DNA of 43,111 nucleotides from a virus. The notes under the pieces are model-generated. The model was given only the letters and a program-made list of their open reading frames with translations. It was not told the origin of the DNA and did not search any database. Where the stretch lies: the IMG/VR virus record IMGVR_UViG_3300001683_000035, positions 1-43,111 of that record. The stretch is one strand, 5' to 3'. This document shows, piece by piece, positions 14,046-41,579 of this stretch; the stretch's first letter is position 1, and every line of letters begins with the position of its first letter. The translations under genes were made by a program, and so were the position numbers.

Positions 14046-15218
14046 TTGCGGTTTGTTGTATTAGATTCAAAGAAAGAATGCTTAGGATACTATTACGATG
14101 GAAAGATTAACGATACTCCCCCCAACAACGCATCAACAACTTGGGATTACAGGCATCATCACCATGATGATAAATATGAGTATGCTTCTCTCTACGTGAA
14201 GGGCAAAAGCCTAACGGATTCATGTCCAGATTACATGAAGCCCGAATGGGATAAACTACAAGAGCAAAAGAAAGCATATCAGAATGCTATTACCAAGTCA
14301 AGAATAAACATTGACGACGTGTGCGCTTTTGATTTGATACCGGAGTGGTTTCTCAGAGAAATGTCGCAAGCAAAGTGTGACATCATCAAACATGTGGTAG
14401 AGGAAGTAGAGAAGCCTATCACTTACGACTTTACACTTCAACTAGAAAAGTTGTTTGGCGAGATAAGACAGAACACACTAAACTTGGACATGGAGTCCGT
14501 GAAAGATAGAATGCTCTTCCCGTCAGCCAAGAGCCTGATACAGAGAATCAAAAAGGCAGACAAGAGCATTCAGTACAGTCAGTTTGGCTCTATAACAGGA
14601 CGCCTTGTTAGCACCAAGACCAGCTTCCCTATTCTAAACCTACATAAATCTTTCAGAAAGATGGTAAAGCCAAACAATGACTTCTTTATTGAGTTTGACT
14701 ACAACGCAGCAGAGCTAAGAACTCTATTGGCTCTCTCCGGAGAGGAACAGCCTCAAGAAGATATGCACATCTGGAACATGAAGAATATCTTCAATAAAGA
14801 GATTACGAGAGACGAGGCAAAGAAGAAAATCTTTGCAGCCCTCTACAATTCTAAGAGCAAACAGAAATACTACAAGATAGAAGAAGTGGTGGCCAAACAT
14901 TATAGTGCTGAGACCGTCTCAACGCCCTTCTATCGCACGATAAAGACTGACAGGCATCACGCCCTCAACTATCTGCTACAGAGCACTACAAGCGATCTGG
15001 TGCTGGAGCAAGTGCTAAGGGTAAATGAGCTTCTGAAAGGAAAGCGCTCGAAAATAGTTTTTTTGATCCACGACAGTTTTGTGCTTGACATGGCAGCCGA
15101 AGACAGGTATACTGTACCAGAGATCAAAAAGATATTTTCCGAAAATCGCTTTGGGAAGTATCTTGTCGGCGTCAAGGCTGGAAAAGACTTTGATTCTATG
15201 AAAGAGATAAAGTTATAA
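14046..15218 (+). CDS. Compact family-A DNA polymerase
   Basis: This is a small DNA polymerase of the Pol I/T7 type. The template-binding segment FGSITGRLVSTKTSFPILNL lies near residue 180. Motif A is DYNAAELR with Asp218; motif B (O helix) is RDEAKKKIFAALY with Arg255, Lys259 and Phe263; motif C is HDS with Asp343. All key catalytic positions are therefore present. At about 391 residues it lacks room for a normal 3'-5' exonuclease; the first 130 residues show no DxE exonuclease motif. I chose TTG 14046, preceded by AGAGAGGG, since the earlier GTG 13980 lies inside the previous gene. It overlaps the tubulin-like gene by one base (TAATG). Because a DnaE replicase is also encoded, this enzyme may do repair, gap filling or Okazaki processing. 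Confidence 0.82.
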   Translation: MRFVVLDSKKECLGYYYDGKINDTPPNNASTTWDYRHHHHDDKYEYASLYVKGKSLTDSCPDYMKPEWDKLQEQKKAYQNAITKSRINIDDVCAFDLIPEWFLREMSQAKCDIIKHVVEEVEKPITYDFTLQLEKLFGEIRQNTLNLDMESVKDRMLFPSAKSLIQRIKKADKSIQYSQFGSITGRLVSTKTSFPILNLHKSFRKMVKPNNDFFIEFDYNAAELRTLLALSGEEQPQEDMHIWNMKNIFNKEITRDEAKKKIFAALYNSKSKQKYYKIEEVVAKHYSAETVSTPFYRTIKTDRHHALNYLLQSTTSDLVLEQVLRVNELLKGKRSKIVFLIHDSFVLDMAAEDRYTVPEIKKIFSENRFGKYLVGVKAGKDFDSMKEIKL

Positions 15219-16057
15219 TGAACGTTATAGGATTAGGCAGCGCAGGGTGTAATATAGCTGACAAACTATCAGGATATCCTCAGTACACCATTCACAAGAT
15301 AGACGTCGGCCTCAAGAAGGGTAAAGGTAATCACCCTCTAACTAAACGATCCTCTACGGAGCAATATGAGGAAAAATTTCCCAAGAAGGTTTTTTCAGAT
15401 TTGCAAAAGATAGAAGGGGATGCATTATTTATTGTTGGTGGCGGTGGAAGTGTTTCTTCTGCTTCTTTGAGGATACTGGAAGCTCTGAAGGGCAATAGGA
15501 CAGAAGTTATTTATGTGAGGCCAGACACTTCATTTATGAATGAGGCTGGCGTAATGCTTGATAGGGCAGTTTTCAACATTCTTCAAGAATATGCCCGGTC
15601 TGGCATCCTTGAGAAATTATATATTGTATCTAATTCCGAGATAGAGAGAGTCGTTGGTGACCTTCCAGTCTCAAAATATCATGACAAGATTAATGAAATA
15701 ATAGCGTCTACCATTCACATGGTAAATGTCTATCGAAACTCAGAAACGCCCTTAAGCAATATCGCAGAAGGGGCAGGCGTTTCAAGAATATCAACCATTG
15801 GGGTAGGAACGATGGAGAAGGTCATTGATCAAATGTTCTTCTCTCTCGACCATACATCTGAAAAGGTTTATTATTTCGCAATTAACAAAAAACAAATGGA
15901 GGAAGACAACCAACTATTGTTTTCGATAAAAAACAGAATAAGGCAAGACGATTCAACCACAAAGACTAGTTTCGGAGTATTCCCTTCTTTATATGAGGAG
16001 AACTACATATACATCGTTGCTAGCACAAAGATTATACAAGGAGTAGAGTATGAATAA
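15218..16057 (+). CDS. Tubulin/FtsZ-like GTPase homologue
   Basis: The 279-residue protein begins MNVIGLGSAGCNIADKL, matching the first nucleotide-binding strand and loop of FtsZ/tubulin (VIGVGGAGxN). At residues 74-80 it has GGGGSVS preceded by the hydrophobic strand LFIV, the place of the tubulin signature GGGTGTG. The middle helix region (INEIIASTIHMVN) and later beta strands (ISTIGVG, YYFAINKK) fit the fold. It is shorter than FtsZ (about 380) and phage PhuZ (about 315), and the signature is altered, so GTPase activity is not assured. It overlaps the polymerase upstream by 1 base and the next gene by 8, so it is co-expressed with replication genes. A role in positioning replicating phage DNA or virions is inferred from PhuZ/TubZ. 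Confidence 0.7.
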   Translation: MNVIGLGSAGCNIADKLSGYPQYTIHKIDVGLKKGKGNHPLTKRSSTEQYEEKFPKKVFSDLQKIEGDALFIVGGGGSVSSASLRILEALKGNRTEVIYVRPDTSFMNEAGVMLDRAVFNILQEYARSGILEKLYIVSNSEIERVVGDLPVSKYHDKINEIIASTIHMVNVYRNSETPLSNIAEGAGVSRISTIGVGTMEKVIDQMFFSLDHTSEKVYYFAINKKQMEEDNQLLFSIKNRIRQDDSTTKTSFGVFPSLYEENYIYIVASTKIIQGVEYE

Positions 16058-16390: not shown

Positions 16391-17125
16391 ATGGCAATTG
16401 ACATGAAGAAAATGAGATCAAAACTAACTCAACTTAAGAGTCGCGGAAGCGGCGGAGGGAACTTTTGGAAGCCACAAGATGGTAACCAGACTATCCGCAT
16501 TCTTCCTACGGAAGATGAAGACCCTTTTAAGCAGTTCTTCTTTCACTATAACGTGGGTGAAGGAGGAGGGTTCTTGTGTCCAAAGAATAATTTTGGAGAC
16601 AATTGTCCAGTGTGTGGTTTTGTAAAGACTCTCTATCAGCAAGGTGATGATGAGAGCAAGGAAGTGGCCCGCGGACTCAATGTAAAGAGTCGCTTCTTTT
16701 CCCCTGTGCTTGTTCGAGGGGAAGATGATTCGGGAGTCCGTGTCTATGGGTATAGCAAGACCGTGTATGAAACACTACTTGGGCTTGTTCTAAACCCTGA
16801 ATATGGTGATATTACCGACTTGGAGACTGGAGTTGATCTGGGTCTTCAATACGGTAAGCCACCGGGTGGAAACTTCCCCGTTACCAAGATTACCCCCAAG
16901 AGGCAATCTAGCTCGCTTTGTGATAAACTAAGCGATGATCAGTGTAAAGAAATGCTTGAGAGCATTCCTGATTTTAGCACTCTTTTCGAGCGACGCTCTT
17001 CGGAAGATGTGCAAAAGTTGCTGGATGAGCACATGGCTGGTAATAATGCGGAAGGTTTCTCTAAGGAAACTGAAAAGTACACCGACACGGAGAAGGTAGA
17101 CAGCGCGTTTAACGAGTTGCTCTAG
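16391..17125 (+). CDS. Single-stranded DNA-binding protein (T4 gp32-like)
   Basis: This 244-residue protein coats single-stranded DNA during replication and recombination. It has a basic N-terminus (MKKMRSKLTQLKSRG), corresponding to the gp32 cooperativity region, then NFWKPQDGNQTIRILP, a hallmark of the family. CPKNNFGDNCPVCGF near residue 58-72 supplies cysteines for the zinc site, and NVKSRFFSPVLVRG lies in the OB fold. The C-terminus is acidic, which in T4 contacts other replication proteins. AAAAGGAG precedes the ATG. It is under its own strong promoter, in keeping with the large amounts of gp32 needed. Confidence 0.92.
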   Translation: MAIDMKKMRSKLTQLKSRGSGGGNFWKPQDGNQTIRILPTEDEDPFKQFFFHYNVGEGGGFLCPKNNFGDNCPVCGFVKTLYQQGDDESKEVARGLNVKSRFFSPVLVRGEDDSGVRVYGYSKTVYETLLGLVLNPEYGDITDLETGVDLGLQYGKPPGGNFPVTKITPKRQSSSLCDKLSDDQCKEMLESIPDFSTLFERRSSEDVQKLLDEHMAGNNAEGFSKETEKYTDTEKVDSAFNELL

Positions 17126-17189: not shown

Positions 17190-18329
17190 ATGGCAAGAAA
17201 TAAAAGCAAGTCAGCAGGCAAACTAAGTATTGCTGAAATGCGAAATTTGATAAATAAAAAAGCCGGCATGACAGTTTCCCATGATCTAACTTCTAAGAAT
17301 CCTTCCGAAGTTACTGACTGGATACCGACAGGCTCAACATGGTTAAATAGTATTATTTGTAGGGGCAAGACTGCCGGCATTCCAGTAGGAAAGATTACTG
17401 AGATCGCCGGCATGGAGTCTAGCGGGAAAAGCTACATGGCAGCGCAAACTTGCGCTAGCGCGCAGAAGAAAGGGATAGAGGTTGTCTATTTCGATTCTGA
17501 GTCTGCCATAGATCCATCATTTTTAGAGAGGAGCGGCGTCAATTTAAGTGAACTTTTATATACACAAGCAATTTCTGTTGAATTTGTCTTGGAAACTATA
17601 GAAGATTTGCTCAATTCTAATGACGCTAGGTTTCTCTTCGTGTGGGACTCTTTAGCATTGACTCCCGCCATTAGTGATGTAGAAGGGTCTTTCAACCCGA
17701 ATGAATCGGTAGCAGTAAAGGCGAGAGTCCTGGCAAAGGGGATGTCAAAATTGATAGTGACACTGGCCAACTCTCAGTCAACGCTCTTGGTTCTAAATCA
17801 ATTGAAAACAAACTTGCAGGTTGCCAACCCGAAATATGCAACTGATAGCGAAAAGTATACTTGTCCAGGTGGGAAGGCAATGAACTATGCTTATAGTTTG
17901 CGCGTCTGGCTCACAGGAAGAAAGGGCAAGAATAGTGTAATTTTAGATGACAAAGGGTATAGAATAGGAAATGAAGTTAAGGCACGTTTAGAGAAATCGC
18001 GCTTTGGTACGGCCGGCCGCATTTGTAACTTCAAAATTATGTGGGGTGGCGATATTGGGGTAAGGGATGACGAGAGTCTATTTGAAGCAATTCAAAGCTC
18101 CAAGCATCTGAACAATGCAGGTGCATGGTGGACCTTATCCTATGAAGACGGCAGCAAAGAAAAGTTTCAAGCATCCAAATGGCCACAGCTAATGACTGGA
18201 GAAAAGTTTAGGGACCGAGTGATGGCTATCCTCGATGAGGAAGTTGTTTTGAAATTCGACAAGAGATTGGTGGATGCCGATGTCTTTTATGAAGAAGAAG
18301 ACGAAGAAGCGACGAAAGAAAGCGCGTAA
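17190..18329 (+). CDS. uvsX: RecA/UvsX recombinase
   Basis: This 379-residue ATPase forms filaments on single-stranded DNA and promotes strand exchange, the basis of recombination-dependent replication in T4-type phages. Walker A is GMESSGKS (residues 74-81), preceded by IPVGKITEIAG; the Walker B strand is FLFVWDSLALTP; later LLVLNQLKTNL and the GGKAMNYAYSLRVWL region correspond to the RecA core loops. The C-terminus is strongly acidic (YEEEDEEATKESA), as in many RecA proteins. ATG 17190 follows ACAAGGATT. It is 64 bases downstream of gp32 with which it works. Confidence 0.92.
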   Translation: MARNKSKSAGKLSIAEMRNLINKKAGMTVSHDLTSKNPSEVTDWIPTGSTWLNSIICRGKTAGIPVGKITEIAGMESSGKSYMAAQTCASAQKKGIEVVYFDSESAIDPSFLERSGVNLSELLYTQAISVEFVLETIEDLLNSNDARFLFVWDSLALTPAISDVEGSFNPNESVAVKARVLAKGMSKLIVTLANSQSTLLVLNQLKTNLQVANPKYATDSEKYTCPGGKAMNYAYSLRVWLTGRKGKNSVILDDKGYRIGNEVKARLEKSRFGTAGRICNFKIMWGGDIGVRDDESLFEAIQSSKHLNNAGAWWTLSYEDGSKEKFQASKWPQLMTGEKFRDRVMAILDEEVVLKFDKRLVDADVFYEEEDEEATKESA

Positions 18330-18787: not shown

Positions 18788-18966
18788 CAGAAAAAGATAA
18801 AGATAAAGAAATAAAGAAGCTGCGCGAGACAATAGAGTTGTCCGTAGATGCACTTCATAAGAATATGGCAATTTTGGGATCTCTATATACAAAGATAGGA
18901 ATTCTTGAAGCGAAAAACACTGAACTAGAACAAAAGGTGAAAGACCTGGAGGAGAAAGTATCTTGA
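18784..18966 (+). CDS. Small coiled-coil protein
   Basis: This is a 60-residue, highly charged, entirely helical protein with heptad-like spacing (KIGILEAKNTELEQKVKDLEEKV), predicted to form a coiled coil. It starts with an ATGA overlap with the deaminase gene and ends overlapping the nuclease start (TTGA). No function can be assigned. Its place in a tight operon with good coding character supports it being real. Confidence 0.7.
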   Translation: MTEKDKDKEIKKLRETIELSVDALHKNMAILGSLYTKIGILEAKNTELEQKVKDLEEKVS

Positions 18967-19940
18967 AAAGACTAATGATTGTTGACGGAAATAATGATTT
19001 TGTTAGGCACTATATTGTCAACCCATCGCTGTCCACCAATGGCCAGCCAGTTGGTGGTATTGTGGGCTTCCTTCAAAGTTTACAGAAGCTTGATCGCTCA
19101 ATCAAGCCGGATTCTATTGTCGTGGTGTGGGATGGCGCCGGCGGCAGCAAGAAGAGAAAGTCTCTTGTTAAAACATACAAGGAAGGCCGAAAGCCTATCC
19201 GCCTAAACAGAAACGTTAGGAACCTGGAGGCAAACGAAGAGACAGATAACCGGATTTGGCAGCAGGTGAGGATTTTAGAATATCTCAACAAGACTCCAGT
19301 AATCCAATTTATGAAGCCAGACATAGAGGCGGATGATATTGTTGCTTTTGTTAGCATGCTTCCGCGGTTCTCTGAGTGGCAAAAGGTTATTGTATCGAGC
19401 GACAAAGATTTCATCCAGCTATGTGATGATAACACCGTCCTTTTCCGCCCGATCCAAAAAGAAGTCTTGAACAAGAAGGCTATAATTAGCGACTTCTCTA
19501 TTAGTCCGACAAACTTTGCATTGGCCCGAGCAATGGTAGGCGATAAATCAGATAACCTGCCAGGAGTTCCAGGTGTAGGATTAGCCACCGCTGCCAAGCG
19601 CCTGCCTTTTCTGGTAGAAGAAAAATCTTACTTTATTGAAGATGTCATGAACTACTGCCAGAAGAAAGTTGATGAGGATACAAACATTAGGTTTTATTCT
19701 TCGATCTTAGAACACGAGGATGTGGTAAATTTGAATTATAAGATGATGCAACTATATAGCCCAAGTCTGTCAACCCAAGCTGTGCGCTCTATAAGGGAGT
19801 CTCTCGAAAAGCACGAGCCAGAGTTTAGCGAGACTGAGGTTGTCAAGATGTTGTTCCAAGATGGCTTCCCCCAAATTAACTTAGATGAACTATATGCCAC
19901 CTTCCGAAAAATAATCCGTGAGCACAAAGAAAGCTCTTGA
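18963..19940 (+). CDS. 5'-3' exonuclease/flap endonuclease (T4 RNase H-like)
   Basis: The 325-residue protein belongs to the FEN/PIN-type 5' nucleases that remove RNA primers and flaps. Metal-binding acidic residues appear in order: IVDGNNDF near residue 7, VVVWDGAGG near 53, DIEADDIVAFV near 120, SSDKDFIQL near 142, and MVGDKSDNLPGVPGVG near 190, which is also the helix-hairpin-helix DNA-binding loop. The start is TTG 18963 with GGAGGAGA just upstream. It probably processes Okazaki fragments together with the phage polymerases. Confidence 0.88.
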   Translation: MKRLMIVDGNNDFVRHYIVNPSLSTNGQPVGGIVGFLQSLQKLDRSIKPDSIVVVWDGAGGSKKRKSLVKTYKEGRKPIRLNRNVRNLEANEETDNRIWQQVRILEYLNKTPVIQFMKPDIEADDIVAFVSMLPRFSEWQKVIVSSDKDFIQLCDDNTVLFRPIQKEVLNKKAIISDFSISPTNFALARAMVGDKSDNLPGVPGVGLATAAKRLPFLVEEKSYFIEDVMNYCQKKVDEDTNIRFYSSILEHEDVVNLNYKMMQLYSPSLSTQAVRSIRESLEKHEPEFSETEVVKMLFQDGFPQINLDELYATFRKIIREHKESS

Positions 19941-19987: not shown

Positions 19988-21343
19988 GTGTTAGAGCAAG
20001 AGATTAAAACGTTTGGTTCTTTCGGGAAACCATTTCAAGAAGTATTAGCAAAATTGATATTAGAAGATTCGAAGTTCGCCACGCAGCTTGGTGAGATTCT
20101 GGATATCAACTTTTTTGAATTAAGATACCTTCAGGATTTCGTAAATAAGATTTATGTGCACAAAAAAGGCTACGAGGTGCACCCGTCAAAAGGAACTTTT
20201 GAGAGCATTCTTAAGAATGAATCGAAAGATGCTATCAGCGAGACACTGAGAAAGCAAGTAAGAGACTATTATGTCAAGATGGCATCTGGCCGCATTGATG
20301 AAGTAGATGAAGAGTATGTAAAAAGTAAAGCATTAGATTTCTGCAAGAAGCAGAAGCTTCAAGAGGCGATGCTAAAGAGCGTAAAGCTGATGAAGGAATC
20401 TTCTTTCGACGAGATCAGCAAGATAATCAATGACGCGCTCAAGCTAGGGCTGGATACAGACTTTGGATACAACTTTTTAGAAGACTTCGAGAAAAGATAC
20501 GAACTCAAATATAGAAACCCAATATCAACAGGGTGGTTAGAGATCGATGATATTCTACGTGGCGGACTGGGAAATGGTGAACTTGGTGTCGTTATTGCTC
20601 CTACAGGGGTTGGCAAAAGTATGGTCTTGGCTCACTTGGGAGCGAAAGCAATCCTGGCCGGCCACAACGTAGTTCATTATACACTAGAGTTGCAGGACAT
20701 TACCATAGGAAATAGATATGATTCTTGCTTGACGGGGATTCGACTAAACGAATTATATTCCAGGAAAGATGAAGTTTACGAAAAGATCAAGGAGACTCCA
20801 GGAAAACTTTTGATCAAAGAGTACCCTACAAAATCTGCAACAACAAATACCATACGCAATCATTTAGAGAAGTTACGGCAACGAGATTTTAAGGTTGATA
20901 CCCTTATTGTAGACTATGGCGATCTTTTAAAACCTATTTTATATTCAAAAGAGAAAAGAGAAAACCTCGAAACTATTTATGAAGAGTTGAGGGGAATCGC
21001 TCAAGAATTTGAGTGCCCAGTCTGGACAGCCTCACAAACCAACAGGAGCGGAATAAACGCAGAAGTCATAACGATGGAAGCAATCAGCGAAGCGTTCTCT
21101 AAATGCTTTGTTGCGGATTTTATTTTTTCAGTTTCGAGGACGGGCACAGACAAAGTGAACAACACAGGTAGAATTTTCATTGCAAAAAATAGAAATGGTA
21201 TTGATGGCATCGTGTTTCCAATTTTTATGGACGCATCAAATGTTGACATCAAGGTGCTGCCTCAATCTGAATTGCCAAAAGATGAGAATGGGCTGACAAA
21301 GCCTCAACAAATTTACAAACTACAAAGGGAAAAGGGAAAATAA
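19988..21343 (+). CDS. Replicative DNA helicase (T4 gp41/DnaB-like)
   Basis: This is a 451-residue hexameric 5'-3' replicative helicase. The N-terminal 150 residues are helical, then ISTGWLEIDDILRGGLGNGE leads to Walker A in VIAPTGVGKSMVLAHLG near residue 210. LIVDYGDLLKP is Walker B, and WTASQTNRSG with later VSRTGTDK are DnaB-family motifs III/IV. GTG 19988 is preceded by TTGGAG. Length is close to T4 gp41 (475). No primase is evident in this window, so priming is presumably encoded elsewhere. Confidence 0.9.
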   Translation: MLEQEIKTFGSFGKPFQEVLAKLILEDSKFATQLGEILDINFFELRYLQDFVNKIYVHKKGYEVHPSKGTFESILKNESKDAISETLRKQVRDYYVKMASGRIDEVDEEYVKSKALDFCKKQKLQEAMLKSVKLMKESSFDEISKIINDALKLGLDTDFGYNFLEDFEKRYELKYRNPISTGWLEIDDILRGGLGNGELGVVIAPTGVGKSMVLAHLGAKAILAGHNVVHYTLELQDITIGNRYDSCLTGIRLNELYSRKDEVYEKIKETPGKLLIKEYPTKSATTNTIRNHLEKLRQRDFKVDTLIVDYGDLLKPILYSKEKRENLETIYEELRGIAQEFECPVWTASQTNRSGINAEVITMEAISEAFSKCFVADFIFSVSRTGTDKVNNTGRIFIAKNRNGIDGIVFPIFMDASNVDIKVLPQSELPKDENGLTKPQQIYKLQREKGK

Positions 21344-27781: not shown

Positions 27782-30700
27782 ATGGAAAGAAAAGAATCAA
27801 AGCTCCCCTTTGTTGGTCTACACGCACATAGTGTGGCAAGCGTATTTGACGGATTGGGATACCCATCAGAGCATATGGATTTCGCCTATAATAATGGCAT
27901 GGATGCTTTAGCTCTTACTGATCACGGGAATATGAATGGCTTGGCCTATCAAGTGATGCATGCCAAGAAGATGGAGAAAGAAGGCAAAGACTTCAAGCCC
28001 ATCTTTGGTGTGGAGGCATACTTTCTCCCTTCCGTTGCGGAATGGAAAGAGGACTATAATCGCATTCGCGAAGAAAAGATCAAGCTAAAGAAGAGGATCA
28101 CCAAAGATGAGGAGACTAGTGGCGCCACGATTGAAGTAGAAGAAGACACGAAGGCTGCCATTAAGAATATCCTAAACCGCCGCCGCCACTTGGTATTGTT
28201 GGCGCAGAACCAGACAGGATTATATAACCTGTTTCAGCTAATCTCTAAGAGCTACATGCAAGAGAACTATTACAGGTTTCCTCGCTTGGACTATGCACTA
28301 CTCAAAGAACACAATGAAGGGATTATTGCTTCTTCTGCATGTCTTGGTGGCGTGTATGCTGGAGACTTTTGGCAGAATAGAGAGCAGGGCGATGATGCTG
28401 TCCTAGATGCCATGAGGGAAACAAGCAAGTCCATGGTAGATATCTATGGAGATAGGTGGTATGCGGAGATTCAGTGGAACAGGATCAAAGAACAACACGA
28501 ATTAAATAAATATGTCATTCAAGTTGCTGAAGAGTTTGATATTAAGCTAGTCAGCACTGCCGACAGTCATTACCCTAATCCCCTGCTTTGGAAACAACGA
28601 GAGATCTATAAGCAGATTGGATGGAAAGGATTCCAGAGTGAAAGCAAGCTTCCCGATAGCATTGAAGAGATGCCTTACCAACTTTATCCAAAGAATGGCG
28701 ATCAAATGTGGGATTCGTACAAAGAGTATTCCAAAGATTGCGGATTCGAATATGATGATAATGTGGTACGCGACTCTATCACCGAAACACATCACATTGC
28801 CCATGAAAGAATATCCCGGTTCCTACCAAGCAACGAGGTACGGCTTCCAAGTTTTGTGGTCCCCAAAGATAAAAGCGCCGCCGCAGCCCTTATTGATTGC
28901 GCAACTGAGGGACTTCAGCATGCCGGCCTTAGTAAAAAGACCGTTTATGTAGAGAGGTTGAATGAGGAGTTGGAGGTAATCAATGCTAACGACTTTGCTC
29001 AATACTTTTTGACAATGAAAGCAATTGCTGATATCGCTTCATCCAAACAGTTGGTTGGTACCGCTCGTGGTAGCGCTGCTGGCTCTCTAGTCTCTTATGT
29101 CCTTGGCATCACACAGATTGACCCCATTGAACACAACTTGTTGTTTGAGAGGTTCATGACAAGGAACCAAAAAGATATCGGGTTTCCCGATATTGACTAT
29201 GATGTTTCAGATCCGATGGAACTCAAGGAAGATTTGATCAAACGATGGGGAGAGGACAAAGTTATTCCAATTTCAAACTGGAATACTTTGCAACTGAAAT
29301 CTCTTATCAAGGATATTAGTAAGCTTCAAAACATCCCCTTTACAGAAGTGAATACGGTTACAATGAGGATGATGCAGGAGGCAACTCCACCAGCTAAGGC
29401 AGCGAAGGGTATCACTTCTGGTATGTATATTCCTGACTTCGAAGAAGTGAAGAAATACAGCCAGTCGCTTCAGGACTATTTTCGTAGATATCCTGAAGTG
29501 GCAACTCATGTTGACGTTCTATATGGACAGATCCGCAGTTGTTCACGACACGCTGGAGGCGTTGTTGTGGGGGACAACCTAGACAAGTATATGCCGCTCA
29601 TTAATAGTGGTGGCGTGAGGCAGACTCCATGGAGCGAAGGCCAGAACGTTAGACACTTAGAGCCCATGGGTTTTATTAAGTTTGATATCCTTGGACTAAC
29701 CACATTGCGAATGATGGAAGGAGCAATCCGCCACATACTCAAACGTCATTATGACAACAAGGATCCATCTTTCGAGGAAGTGAGGGACTTTTATAATAAG
29801 AAACTTCATCCGAAGAAGATAGACTTGAAGGACAAGAAGGTCTACAAGAATGTGTTCCAAAAAGGCAATTGGGCTGGAGTCTTTCAGTTTACAGAAGGTG
29901 GAGCACAGAGGCTTTGCCAGCAAGTAAAGCCAGAGAACATTGTTGATCTATCTGCTATCACAAGCATCTATCGTCCAGGCCCATTGTCGGCAAAGGTTGA
30001 CAAACACTACATGGAAGCCAAGAGCGATCCAAGCAGCATCAAGTATGCACACAAGATTGTGAAAGAAGTCACAAAGGAAACTTATGGGTTCCTAATCTTT
30101 CAGGAACAAATCGCTATGTTGGCTCATCGTCTTGGAAAAGATATTTCTCTGGATGAAGGAAACATCCTAAGAAAGATTCTCACCAAGAAAGGGAGCAAGA
30201 AGGATAAGGTCAAGGATGGTATCTATAATAGATTCATTGCTGGGTGTGAAGAGAAGGGGATGACTTTCCGTTCTGCTCAAAAGCTTTGGGAAACATTTGA
30301 ATACTTCTCAGGATATGGTTTCAACAAATCACATGCTTTGAGCTATAGCATTCTATCGTTTCAGTGTGCTTGGCTGCTGACATACTATCCTGTTGAGTGG
30401 ATGTCGGCGTTCTTAGATAAAGAACCAGAGGCTCGCAAAGAGAAGGCAATCAACATTGCTCAAAGCATGGGTTTTGGCATCGAGAGACTAAATATCAACA
30501 CCAGCGGTCTTACCTGGGAAATATCAGAAGACGGCAAGACTCTAATCCAGCCCCTGACTAGTGTTAAGGGGATGGGCGAGGCAGCGATTAAAGAGATTAT
30601 AAACTACCGACCATTCAATACCATTGAAGAGTTTTTGTTTCACGATAGGATGTCATATTCTAAAGTAAATAAAAAGACTTTGGATGTGCTGGTTCGCTCG

Positions 30701-31210
30701 CAAACACTAAACAGTCTCATGGATGATAGGTTTAGCGGGATGAAGCACTTCTGGACGGCAGTAGCAAGCGAGCGGCCAAGAAAGGAGAAGAACCTTTTAG
30801 AGAACATAGAGAAGTATGTAACAGAAGGCGACTTCACTCCAGAGGAGAGATTACAACACTTGATTGACTTGACAGGGTTGTTTCCATTTGACTTGGTTAT
30901 GTCAGATGAGATCAAGGTGAGACTAGAGGAGAAGTTTGTTCCCCCTATTAGTGAATTTGATCCTGACTTGGGCTTGGCGTGGTTCATTCCACGCAAAGTG
31001 ATTCCCAAGAAAACAAAGTTTGGAAAGGACTGGTGGCTGGTTGAAGTTATTGATGACAACAGCACTGTCACCGCGATCAAGTGTTGGGGAGTGAAACCTG
31101 GAACGGATGTCATCCACCTCAACCGACCATACATAGCAAGACTAGAATGTGATCCCGTGTGGGGATTTAGCACTAGAAGTGTACGACATACTTTTAGATT
31201 ATTAGGATAG
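27782..31210 (+). CDS. dnaE: DNA polymerase III alpha subunit (family C replicase)
   Basis: This is a full-length bacterial-type replicase of 1142 residues (E. coli DnaE is 1160). The PHP domain is at the N-terminus (FVGLHAHSVASVFDGLG, ALALTDHGNMNGL, GVEAYF, DSHYPN). The catalytic palm has GTARGSAAGSLVSYVLGI near residue 425 and FPDIDYD with Asp470 and Asp472. GVFQFTEGGAQRL and IYRPGPL are further family C motifs, and SGYGFNKSHALSYS and the HhH region (VKGMGEAAIKEI) follow. It lacks an obvious beta-clamp motif that I can place. No intein is seen. Most T4-type phages use a family B polymerase (gp43), so this is unusual. It stands 14 bases after the small gene. Confidence 0.93.
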   Translation: MERKESKLPFVGLHAHSVASVFDGLGYPSEHMDFAYNNGMDALALTDHGNMNGLAYQVMHAKKMEKEGKDFKPIFGVEAYFLPSVAEWKEDYNRIREEKIKLKKRITKDEETSGATIEVEEDTKAAIKNILNRRRHLVLLAQNQTGLYNLFQLISKSYMQENYYRFPRLDYALLKEHNEGIIASSACLGGVYAGDFWQNREQGDDAVLDAMRETSKSMVDIYGDRWYAEIQWNRIKEQHELNKYVIQVAEEFDIKLVSTADSHYPNPLLWKQREIYKQIGWKGFQSESKLPDSIEEMPYQLYPKNGDQMWDSYKEYSKDCGFEYDDNVVRDSITETHHIAHERISRFLPSNEVRLPSFVVPKDKSAAAALIDCATEGLQHAGLSKKTVYVERLNEELEVINANDFAQYFLTMKAIADIASSKQLVGTARGSAAGSLVSYVLGITQIDPIEHNLLFERFMTRNQKDIGFPDIDYDVSDPMELKEDLIKRWGEDKVIPISNWNTLQLKSLIKDISKLQNIPFTEVNTVTMRMMQEATPPAKAAKGITSGMYIPDFEEVKKYSQSLQDYFRRYPEVATHVDVLYGQIRSCSRHAGGVVVGDNLDKYMPLINSGGVRQTPWSEGQNVRHLEPMGFIKFDILGLTTLRMMEGAIRHILKRHYDNKDPSFEEVRDFYNKKLHPKKIDLKDKKVYKNVFQKGNWAGVFQFTEGGAQRLCQQVKPENIVDLSAITSIYRPGPLSAKVDKHYMEAKSDPSSIKYAHKIVKEVTKETYGFLIFQEQIAMLAHRLGKDISLDEGNILRKILTKKGSKKDKVKDGIYNRFIAGCEEKGMTFRSAQKLWETFEYFSGYGFNKSHALSYSILSFQCAWLLTYYPVEWMSAFLDKEPEARKEKAINIAQSMGFGIERLNINTSGLTWEISEDGKTLIQPLTSVKGMGEAAIKEIINYRPFNTIEEFLFHDRMSYSKVNKKTLDVLVRSQTLNSLMDDRFSGMKHFWTAVASERPRKEKNLLENIEKYVTEGDFTPEERLQHLIDLTGLFPFDLVMSDEIKVRLEEKFVPPISEFDPDLGLAWFIPRKVIPKKTKFGKDWWLVEVIDDNSTVTAIKCWGVKPGTDVIHLNRPYIARLECDPVWGFSTRSVRHTFRLLG

Positions 31211-40030: not shown

Positions 40031-41579
40031 ATGTCAAAAGAGTATCTTGACACAGAAAAAGGTTTAAATCAGAAAATAGTAGACGGAGTAAATAAGTTAG
40101 CAGACAACGTTGCTGCTACAATGGGACCAAGAGGAAGAAACGTTATTCTCTATCCCAAAAACAGTAACCCAATAATAACAAAAGATGGTGTAACGGTAGC
40201 AAGGTTTGTAAGCCTTGAAGATCCATTTGAAAATGTTGGGGCACAAATAATCAAACAGGCAAGTGAAGAAACTAATTCAAGCGCAGGAGATGGCACAACC
40301 ACTGCGACTGTATTGGCTCGCTCATTGCTCATAGAATCGCAAAAGTATCTCGCTGCGGGTTCGTCACCGGTAGAGCTAAAGAAAGGCATTGAGAAGGCAT
40401 CTGAGCGCGTTGTAGGGCACATTAAAGACATGTCCCAAGAGGTAAAGTCTCTTGATGATATAGAATCTATTGCAACCATCTCAGCAAATGGTGACAAGAG
40501 TATTGGAAAGCTTATTGCAACAGCAATTGATATGATAGGCAAAGACGGCTCCATCACAATAGAAGAGGGCCGCTCTCTTGAGACAAGTTTAGATGTAGTA
40601 GAAGGGTTTAGATTTGACAGCGGGTATGCCGCCGGCGCATTCATTACCGACGAGCGAAGAGGGGTGATGAAACATAACGATCCGCTCTTTCTTATCACTG
40701 ACGAAAAGATAGAGTTTGTAGAAGACATACTTCCAGCGCTGGAATTAGCTGCAAGAGACTCAAGACCGCTAATCATTGTGGCCGAAGAAGTAGAAGGTCA
40801 GGCGCTAGCTGCCGTTATCATGAACTCTGTTCGTGGTTCAATGAAGGTTGCTGCCATCAAGGCTCCGAAATATGGTGACGAAAGAAGGAACATATTAGAA
40901 GATTTATCAATAAGCGTTGGTGCTACTTTTATGTCTAGACAATCAGGGCTATCGCTCAAGGGCGTAAAGCTTAAGCACTTGGGCAATGCAAAATCAATTG
41001 AAAGCTCCAGGTTCGTTACAACAATTGTTGGCGGCAAGGGAGACGACGAAGAGACAGAAAAGAGAATAGAGTCTCTCAAGTCATTGTTCGAGCAGACAGA
41101 CAATATGCATGCATGCGAGCTTATACAAGAAAGAATAACAAGGCTGGCCAGCGGCATTGCCATTATTAATGTCGGTGCTGCGACAGAGATAGAGATGATA
41201 GAGAAGAAGCATAGAATAGAAGACTCTCTTGAGGCAGTAAAGTCTGCGCAACAAGCTTCTCAATGCCGCCGCTATGGTTGACAGAGAGGATCTTAGTTTA
41301 GAGAACAAAGAGCAAGAGTGCGGAGCAGACATACTATTTAAGATATGTGAAGCACCACTAAGACAAATGGTGCTAAACGCAGGAGGAAAGCCGGATGTTG
41401 TTATTAGCGAAGTCTTGTCTTCTGACGGGCTAGGGTATGACATCCTTAAAGAGGAGAAGGTCGATCTGGTAAAGGAAGGCATCATAGATCCGGCAAAAGT
41501 AACACGCTGTGCTCTTCAGAACGCTGTATCAGCAGCCGGCACACTTATCACTACAAGCCACGCTATTATTGAGGAATAA
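40031..41579 (+). pseudogene. GroEL-type chaperonin with internal lesion
   Basis: CGGAGGG precedes ATG 40031. The frame codes for group I chaperonin: MGPRGRNVILY, KDGVTVARF, SSAGDGTTTATVLAR (ATP site), RGSMKVAAIKAPKYG, and IEMIEKKHRIEDSLEAVKSAQ. It then shifts and stops at 41281. The remaining third continues in the +1 frame from about 41256 (LLNAAAMVDRED, APLRQMVLNAGGKPDVV, DPAKVTRCALQNAVSAAG) to 41579. Compared with GroEL, 11 residues (EEGVVAGGGVA, which binds nucleotide) are missing and only 4 bases lie in their place, a net loss of about 29 bases. As written the gene cannot make a whole chaperonin. A real deletion, a mixed population or an assembly error are possible. A GroES-like gene is at 24059. 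Confidence 0.82.

Follow-up and report, generated by a model that had tools for sequence, protein, structure and literature searches.

To our knowledge, proteins with the tubulin fold are discussed almost wholly as filaments driven by GTP. In canonical tubulin hydrolysis each active site is completed by the T7 loop of the neighbouring subunit, and T7 and helix H8 make up much of the longitudinal contact in FtsZ and tubulin. The phage tubulins in the literature that we searched are the PhuZ and TubZ proteins of jumbo or plasmid-like phages, and PhuZ carries its catalytic Asp in T7 (PMC3678025, PMC4244570). The PhuZ mutant D190A, from which this Asp has been removed, still assembles with GTP and forms stable, non-dynamic filaments (PMC4244570). 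FtsZl1 and FtsZl2 are divergent branches of the superfamily which were found through remote homology (Makarova and Koonin 2010, PMC2875224), and hot-spring viral communities contain unspecified tubulin/FtsZ clusters (PMC8597652).

We analysed one stretch of DNA, called the window here, which is a virus record of 43,111 bases. An earlier note on this DNA had marked out an ORF that overlaps a polymerase gene by one base and a small ORF by eight, and its coordinates were correct: the ORF starts at ATG on the base where the polymerase stop ends (15218), and its last eight bases are shared with the 91-aa ORF downstream (Table 1). It is a genuine conserved gene, because it has 155 distinct full-length homologues and is under purifying selection (dN/dS about 0.06-0.16 across eight pairs with 76-95% identity). 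These 155 family members, taken from the loci fetched, form the alignment used for all residue counts.

Table 1. Features of the tubulin-like gene and its replication block, in positions of the window.
Feature	Position	Strand	Basis
Exo-less family-A DNA polymerase (PolA-like)	14046..15218	+	PF00476 E 3.5e-14; motif residues D240, R277, K281, H364, D365 conserved
Tubulin/FtsZ-fold protein (predicted fold)	15218..16057	+	279 aa, T7-less
T1 glycine loop, residues 5-12 GLGSAGCN	15230..15253	+	G5/G7/G10 in 154-155 of 155
Altered T4 phosphate loop, residues 74-83 GGGGSVSSAS, replacing GGGTGTG	15437..15466	+	G75 148/155, S/T80 152/155
N139, Asn directly after strand S6, at the FtsZ N165 position	15632..15634	+	155/155; profile register; strand 133-138
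Core helix H7, residues 151-173, with N159	15668..15736	+	Model; N159 155/155
Loop 174-190, expected site of T7 and helix H8; no NxDxxD, no helix	15737..15787	+	Models and alignment
Small protein, 91 aa	16050..16325	+	Weak WYL_2 (Sm-like SH3) PF10902 E 0.019; phrog_1086 E 3.1e-4
gp32-like single-strand DNA-binding protein	16391..17125	+	PF08804 E 1.8e-14
RecA-like recombinase	17190..18329	+	tblastn to phage RecA proteins
Exonuclease-like protein (putative function)	18963..19940	+	Same family as a Mel-JY01 gene annotated as DNA polymerase I
DnaB-like replicative helicase	19988..21343	+	phrog_19 E 1.9e-74

AlphaFold was used to predict the structure of the protein from a 30-sequence alignment (pLDDT 92.6, pTM 0.91), and a second model, seeded on a homologue of 33% identity (pLDDT 90.3), had the same elements and gave the same structure matches. 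A Rossmann-like GTPase core, a long core helix H7 and a C-terminal activation domain are all present in the models. Foldseek against the PDB placed FtsZ first (E 1.8e-14) and found 421 chains at E <= 0.001, and the top rows from both Foldseek and VIA are tubulin-superfamily chains without exception. The best VIA alignment is to CetZ (Z 25.1, rmsd 3.1 over 257 residues), and the whole chain is also spanned by FtsZ (Z about 22-24), TubZ (22.7) and tubulin (about 22), though differences in Z of this size do not set the protein firmly nearer to any one of them. At the level of the predicted fold, membership in the tubulin/FtsZ superfamily is strongly supported, and the tubulin/FtsZ-like assignment made in the earlier note from two glycine loops stands.

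Sequence annotation hardly detects the family, which has therefore probably stayed unnamed in viral metagenomes. Pfam, PHROGs, NCBIfam, PADLOC and the PDB sequences gave just chance-level or Rossmann GxGxxG matches. Pfam PF00091 (Tubulin) gave no score for the window's protein, with its sequence-level cut-off not reached, and its best value for any family member was 0.1 in the protein scan, with weak T1-only matches in some contigs. Profile comparison with 11 FtsZ sequences put 160 residues in collinear register (P 0.0041, yet 8% probability), and a deeper 155-row profile brought no improvement over that probability. Some members have weak Pfam matches to TrkA_N and ApbA (best 1.5e-4), which would fit a plain Rossmann protein that binds NAD(P) and carries a GxGxxG loop, rather than a tubulin. 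We give this explanation almost no credence: those matches accompany the N-terminal GxGxxG motif, whereas tubulin and FtsZ structures match the protein over its full length at Z 22-25, H7 and the C-terminal domain included. The family is described nowhere among the literature sources searched, a scope outside which subscription journals and most preprints fall.

The family has at least 583 relatives in IMG/VR viral contigs, among 599 candidates scanned. Starting from the window's protein, three successive IMG/VR scans raised the number of relatives from 3 to 69 and then to at least 583, and a fourth, whose profile was built from a divergent member, reached 583 as well. No member was found in 50,697 phage records by tblastn with four family queries. 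A search of 84,980 prokaryote genomes gave one match, in CP070664, a WOR-3 MAG; it was rejected as evidence of a host because it is a viral fragment inside a scaffold, with N runs on both sides. That stretch (CP070664.1 2243225-2260037) is a fragment of the same phage lineage within the MAG chromosome and is likely scaffolding contamination.

The two loops lie where the earlier note had placed them, GLGSAGCN at residues 5-12 and GGGGSVS at residues 74-80, the second after a hydrophobic strand which the model puts at residues 69-74. Its observation that the nucleotide-binding signature is altered holds for the whole family: the T4 signature GGGTG or GGGTG[ST]G, a GAG-type T3 loop and the catalytic NxDxxD of T7 each occur in 0 of the 155 members, and neither AlphaFold model has an H8-like helix between H7 and strand S7. 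Conservation of the second loop is real at G75 and at S/T80, at the counts given in Table 1, while the GGGG run is confined to the window's protein and some close relatives. G5, G7, G10 and G75 are nearly invariant, and position 76 is S, A or G.

Other positions are held as firmly. Q123, R127 and S128 are invariant (155/155), and H167 (154/155) and N170 (150/155), in the C-terminal half of H7, are nearly so. Position 155 is aromatic or His in 146 of 155 members and is His in the window's protein. We take N139, position 155 and N159 to be the counterparts of beta-tubulin N206, Y224 and N228, which hold guanine, and N139 and N159 are, judged by sequence, the presumed guanine-contacting Asn residues. 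The loop after H7 has at least one acidic residue in 148 of 155 members but at no fixed place, and [DE]xx[DE] in 62 of 155, so a remodelled catalytic site is still allowed. The C-terminal tail is short; in the model the chain ends 9 residues past the last strand.

These motifs bear on whether the protein makes filaments. A tubulin fold encoded in a phage genome could mean a dynamic phage tubulin of the PhuZ or TubZ kind, which positions or segregates viral DNA. Here that is highly improbable, with the catalytic T7 motif found in none of the members and no meaningful alignment in a profile comparison between phiKZ PhuZ and the family. The phiKZ shell protein, chimallin, likewise had no match in 29 carrier contigs, although these contigs are incomplete and the search was run without a positive control. 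A static filament is a serious rival, because PhuZ without its catalytic Asp still forms stable filaments with GTP. In that case the protein would polymerise head to tail with GTP but without hydrolysis, and the stable protofilaments would organise or anchor viral replication sites. The tubulin fold with both domains kept and the strong conservation of H167 and N170 are in keeping with this, but T7 and H8 are missing and there is no PhuZ-type C-terminal tail, and we regard it as possible but rather unlikely. The earlier note had offered a replication-linked filament or a remodelled GTPase. Of the two, the remodelled GTPase is the better fit, since the family lacks the catalytic T7 loop and both models are without an H8-like helix.

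The gene sits in a replication block whose order is conserved: two upstream genes of the tail region (clusters 6 and 4), a family-A polymerase of about 400 aa, the tubulin-like gene, in just part of the family the small 91-aa gene, and then the gp32-like SSB, RecA, the exonuclease-like protein and DnaB. In the window the polymerase ORF opens at GTG 13980; a TTG at 14046 follows directly after the upstream stop, and homologues together with that stop suggest that this TTG is the true start. The window also has a gene for a DnaE-like DNA polymerase III alpha at 27782-31210, and a DnaE-like polymerase was found in 22 of the 29 contigs searched, the window included. Since most of these viruses also have this second polymerase, their main replicase is probably an enzyme other than the PolA-like one. 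Elsewhere in the window, a groEL-like chaperonin gene lies at 40031-41281 (phrog_5725, E 3.9e-108).

Linkage of the tubulin-like gene to the polymerase gene is strong. When the polymerase was used as the query, the tubulin-like gene was present in 79 of 79 loci with room downstream, a set biased towards the window, being drawn from the 80 matches closest to it. The tubulin-like gene lies directly 3' of the polymerase gene in 124 of 187 distinct loci, and the commonest offsets between the two are small overlaps. A MazG-like gene stands between them in 46 of the 187 (46 of the 63 non-adjacent loci); two of these genes have weak Pfam matches (best E 3.9e-4), and the KLVRDKIP motif presumably marks them as MazG-like. 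In one locus, L082:779-1954 (compare L013:5691-6005), the MazG-like and tubulin-like parts form a single 391-aa ORF; this could be a real fusion, or an error of assembly could have produced it. Among 23 contigs chosen for a second viral FtsZ-like family, described below, the tubulin-like gene and the close polymerase either occur together (7 contigs) or are missing together (16). Synteny and the two locus counts thus bear out the link to replication that the earlier note had drawn from the overlaps.

Evolutionary distances between tubulin-like proteins correlate with those of the replication genes (r 0.68-0.83) and somewhat less with those of the two upstream genes (r 0.60-0.69). A special pairing with the polymerase, read from r 0.92 in 56 loci, was dropped: in the 28 loci left without near-duplicates the polymerase, at r 0.83, does no better than RecA, at r 0.82, and the distance correlation gives no special pairing. 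Linkage is not contact, and operon neighbours can act separately.

Gene order also bears on a quite different role. Phages target FtsZ, and a protein that kept the nucleotide face of the fold and lost the T7 face might suit a one-sided cap, which would bind or cap host FtsZ filaments and so block cell division during infection. This is improbable: wherever a locus extends far enough downstream, the gene lies between the polymerase and the SSB, and it passes down together with the polymerase, unlike a mobile takeover gene.

Among cultured phages, the nearest relative found is Microcystis phage Mel-JY01, which carries the block: the PolA-like gene at 50397-51623, gp32, RecA, the exonuclease-like gene and DnaB. 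Its PolA and gp32 genes, however, are separated by three unrelated ORFs, and a tubulin-like gene was detected nowhere in its 190 kb. The gene is therefore typical of an uncultured clade and not of all phages with the block. The earlier note had remarked that a phage tubulin is not typical of a T4-type phage, which is right for the phages described so far, while in this large uncultured lineage of sheath-bearing phages the gene is standard.

Our favoured reading, held tentatively, is that this tubulin-fold protein binds guanine nucleotide, is silenced in hydrolysis and partners the exo-less PolA, serving as a scaffold or switch and not as a dynamic filament of the PhuZ/TubZ type. Computation supports the predicted fold, its conservation, the loss of motifs and the polymerase linkage, and we infer nucleotide binding, lack of hydrolysis, polymerase contact, oligomeric state and function. 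The protein would be a minimal member of the superfamily, with a nucleotide-binding domain, H7 and a C-terminal domain but no T7 motif and no H8-like helix. Guanine nucleotide is probably bound between the T1 and T4 loops and N139 and N159, and canonical GTP hydrolysis is probably absent. The protein would be made together with the polymerase and most likely works with it, presumably in contact, at the phage replication complex, either as a scaffold loaded with GTP or as an accessory factor that responds to nucleotide; it would not push or pull there. A bolder form, in which it is an obligate, hydrolysis-silent subunit of the DNA polymerase in a widespread phage lineage and guanine nucleotide is a structural or regulatory ligand, seems unlikely to us. 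If it were true, tubulin would here be a polymerase cofactor rather than cytoskeleton.

The family is a large viral branch which keeps the presumed guanine-recognition residues, lacks the catalytic loop motif in all 155 members and is inherited with a DNA polymerase. From it one would learn either that this fold can be put to use beyond the cytoskeleton or that phage replication relies on static scaffolds of tubulin. It is also a small natural experiment that could separate the parts of the fold required to bind nucleotide from those required to assemble.

The second viral FtsZ-like family has proteins of about 344-364 aa with an intact GGGGGTGS and a T7-like FDxKDL. IMG/VR contains at least 107 relatives of it; the phage records searched yielded none. 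One contig with both families, IMGVR_UViG_3300025131_009739, encodes one such protein of 364 aa (L152:5387-6481, minus strand), in which the motifs read GGGGGTGS and, T7-like, FDSKDL. Both families occur together in 7 of the 23 contigs carrying the second, and the second occurs in one of 25 contigs chosen for the present family; some viruses therefore carry a canonical-looking tubulin besides the silenced one.

Compared with known systems, the protein resembles FtsZ and CetZ, the division and shape tubulins of bacteria and archaea, in its whole-length fold and, by profile comparison, in the register of T1, T4, the T6 Asn and H7. It differs from them in its length, its short C-terminal tail and its lack of GGGTGTG, the T3 GAG, the T7 NxDxxD and the H8-like helix. 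FtsZ also has a C-terminal conserved peptide and a division context, whereas this protein has neither and belongs to a viral replication operon. Like PhuZ of the phiKZ-type, nucleus-forming jumbo phages it is a phage-encoded tubulin fold, and its viral-model matches include a putative tubulin-like protein from Edwardsiella phage pEt-SU (TMq 0.54), but the family lacks the motif that carries the PhuZ catalytic Asp and is encoded in a PolA-gp32-RecA-DnaB block. It shares the fold of B. cereus TubZ, but is much shorter, has no catalytic T7 and lies among replication genes, with no segregation cassette recognised. FtsZ-like proteins of other uncultured phages are likewise viral and tubulin-folded; A0A6J5RW92, which matched best among the viral models (TMq 0.79), is one of them. 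The second family retains GGGGGTGS and FDxKDL and aligns to FtsZ by profile at E 1.8e-11, whereas the present family does neither. FtsZl1 has an S6-T7 region that is likewise not compatible with FtsZ (PMC2875224). FtsZl1 and FtsZl2, however, are cellular and sit in vWA/OmpA membrane-remodelling operons, whereas the present family sits among replication and tail genes, and where the C-terminal part of FtsZl1 is unrelated to FtsZ, this family keeps H7 and a C-terminal domain of the FtsZ type.
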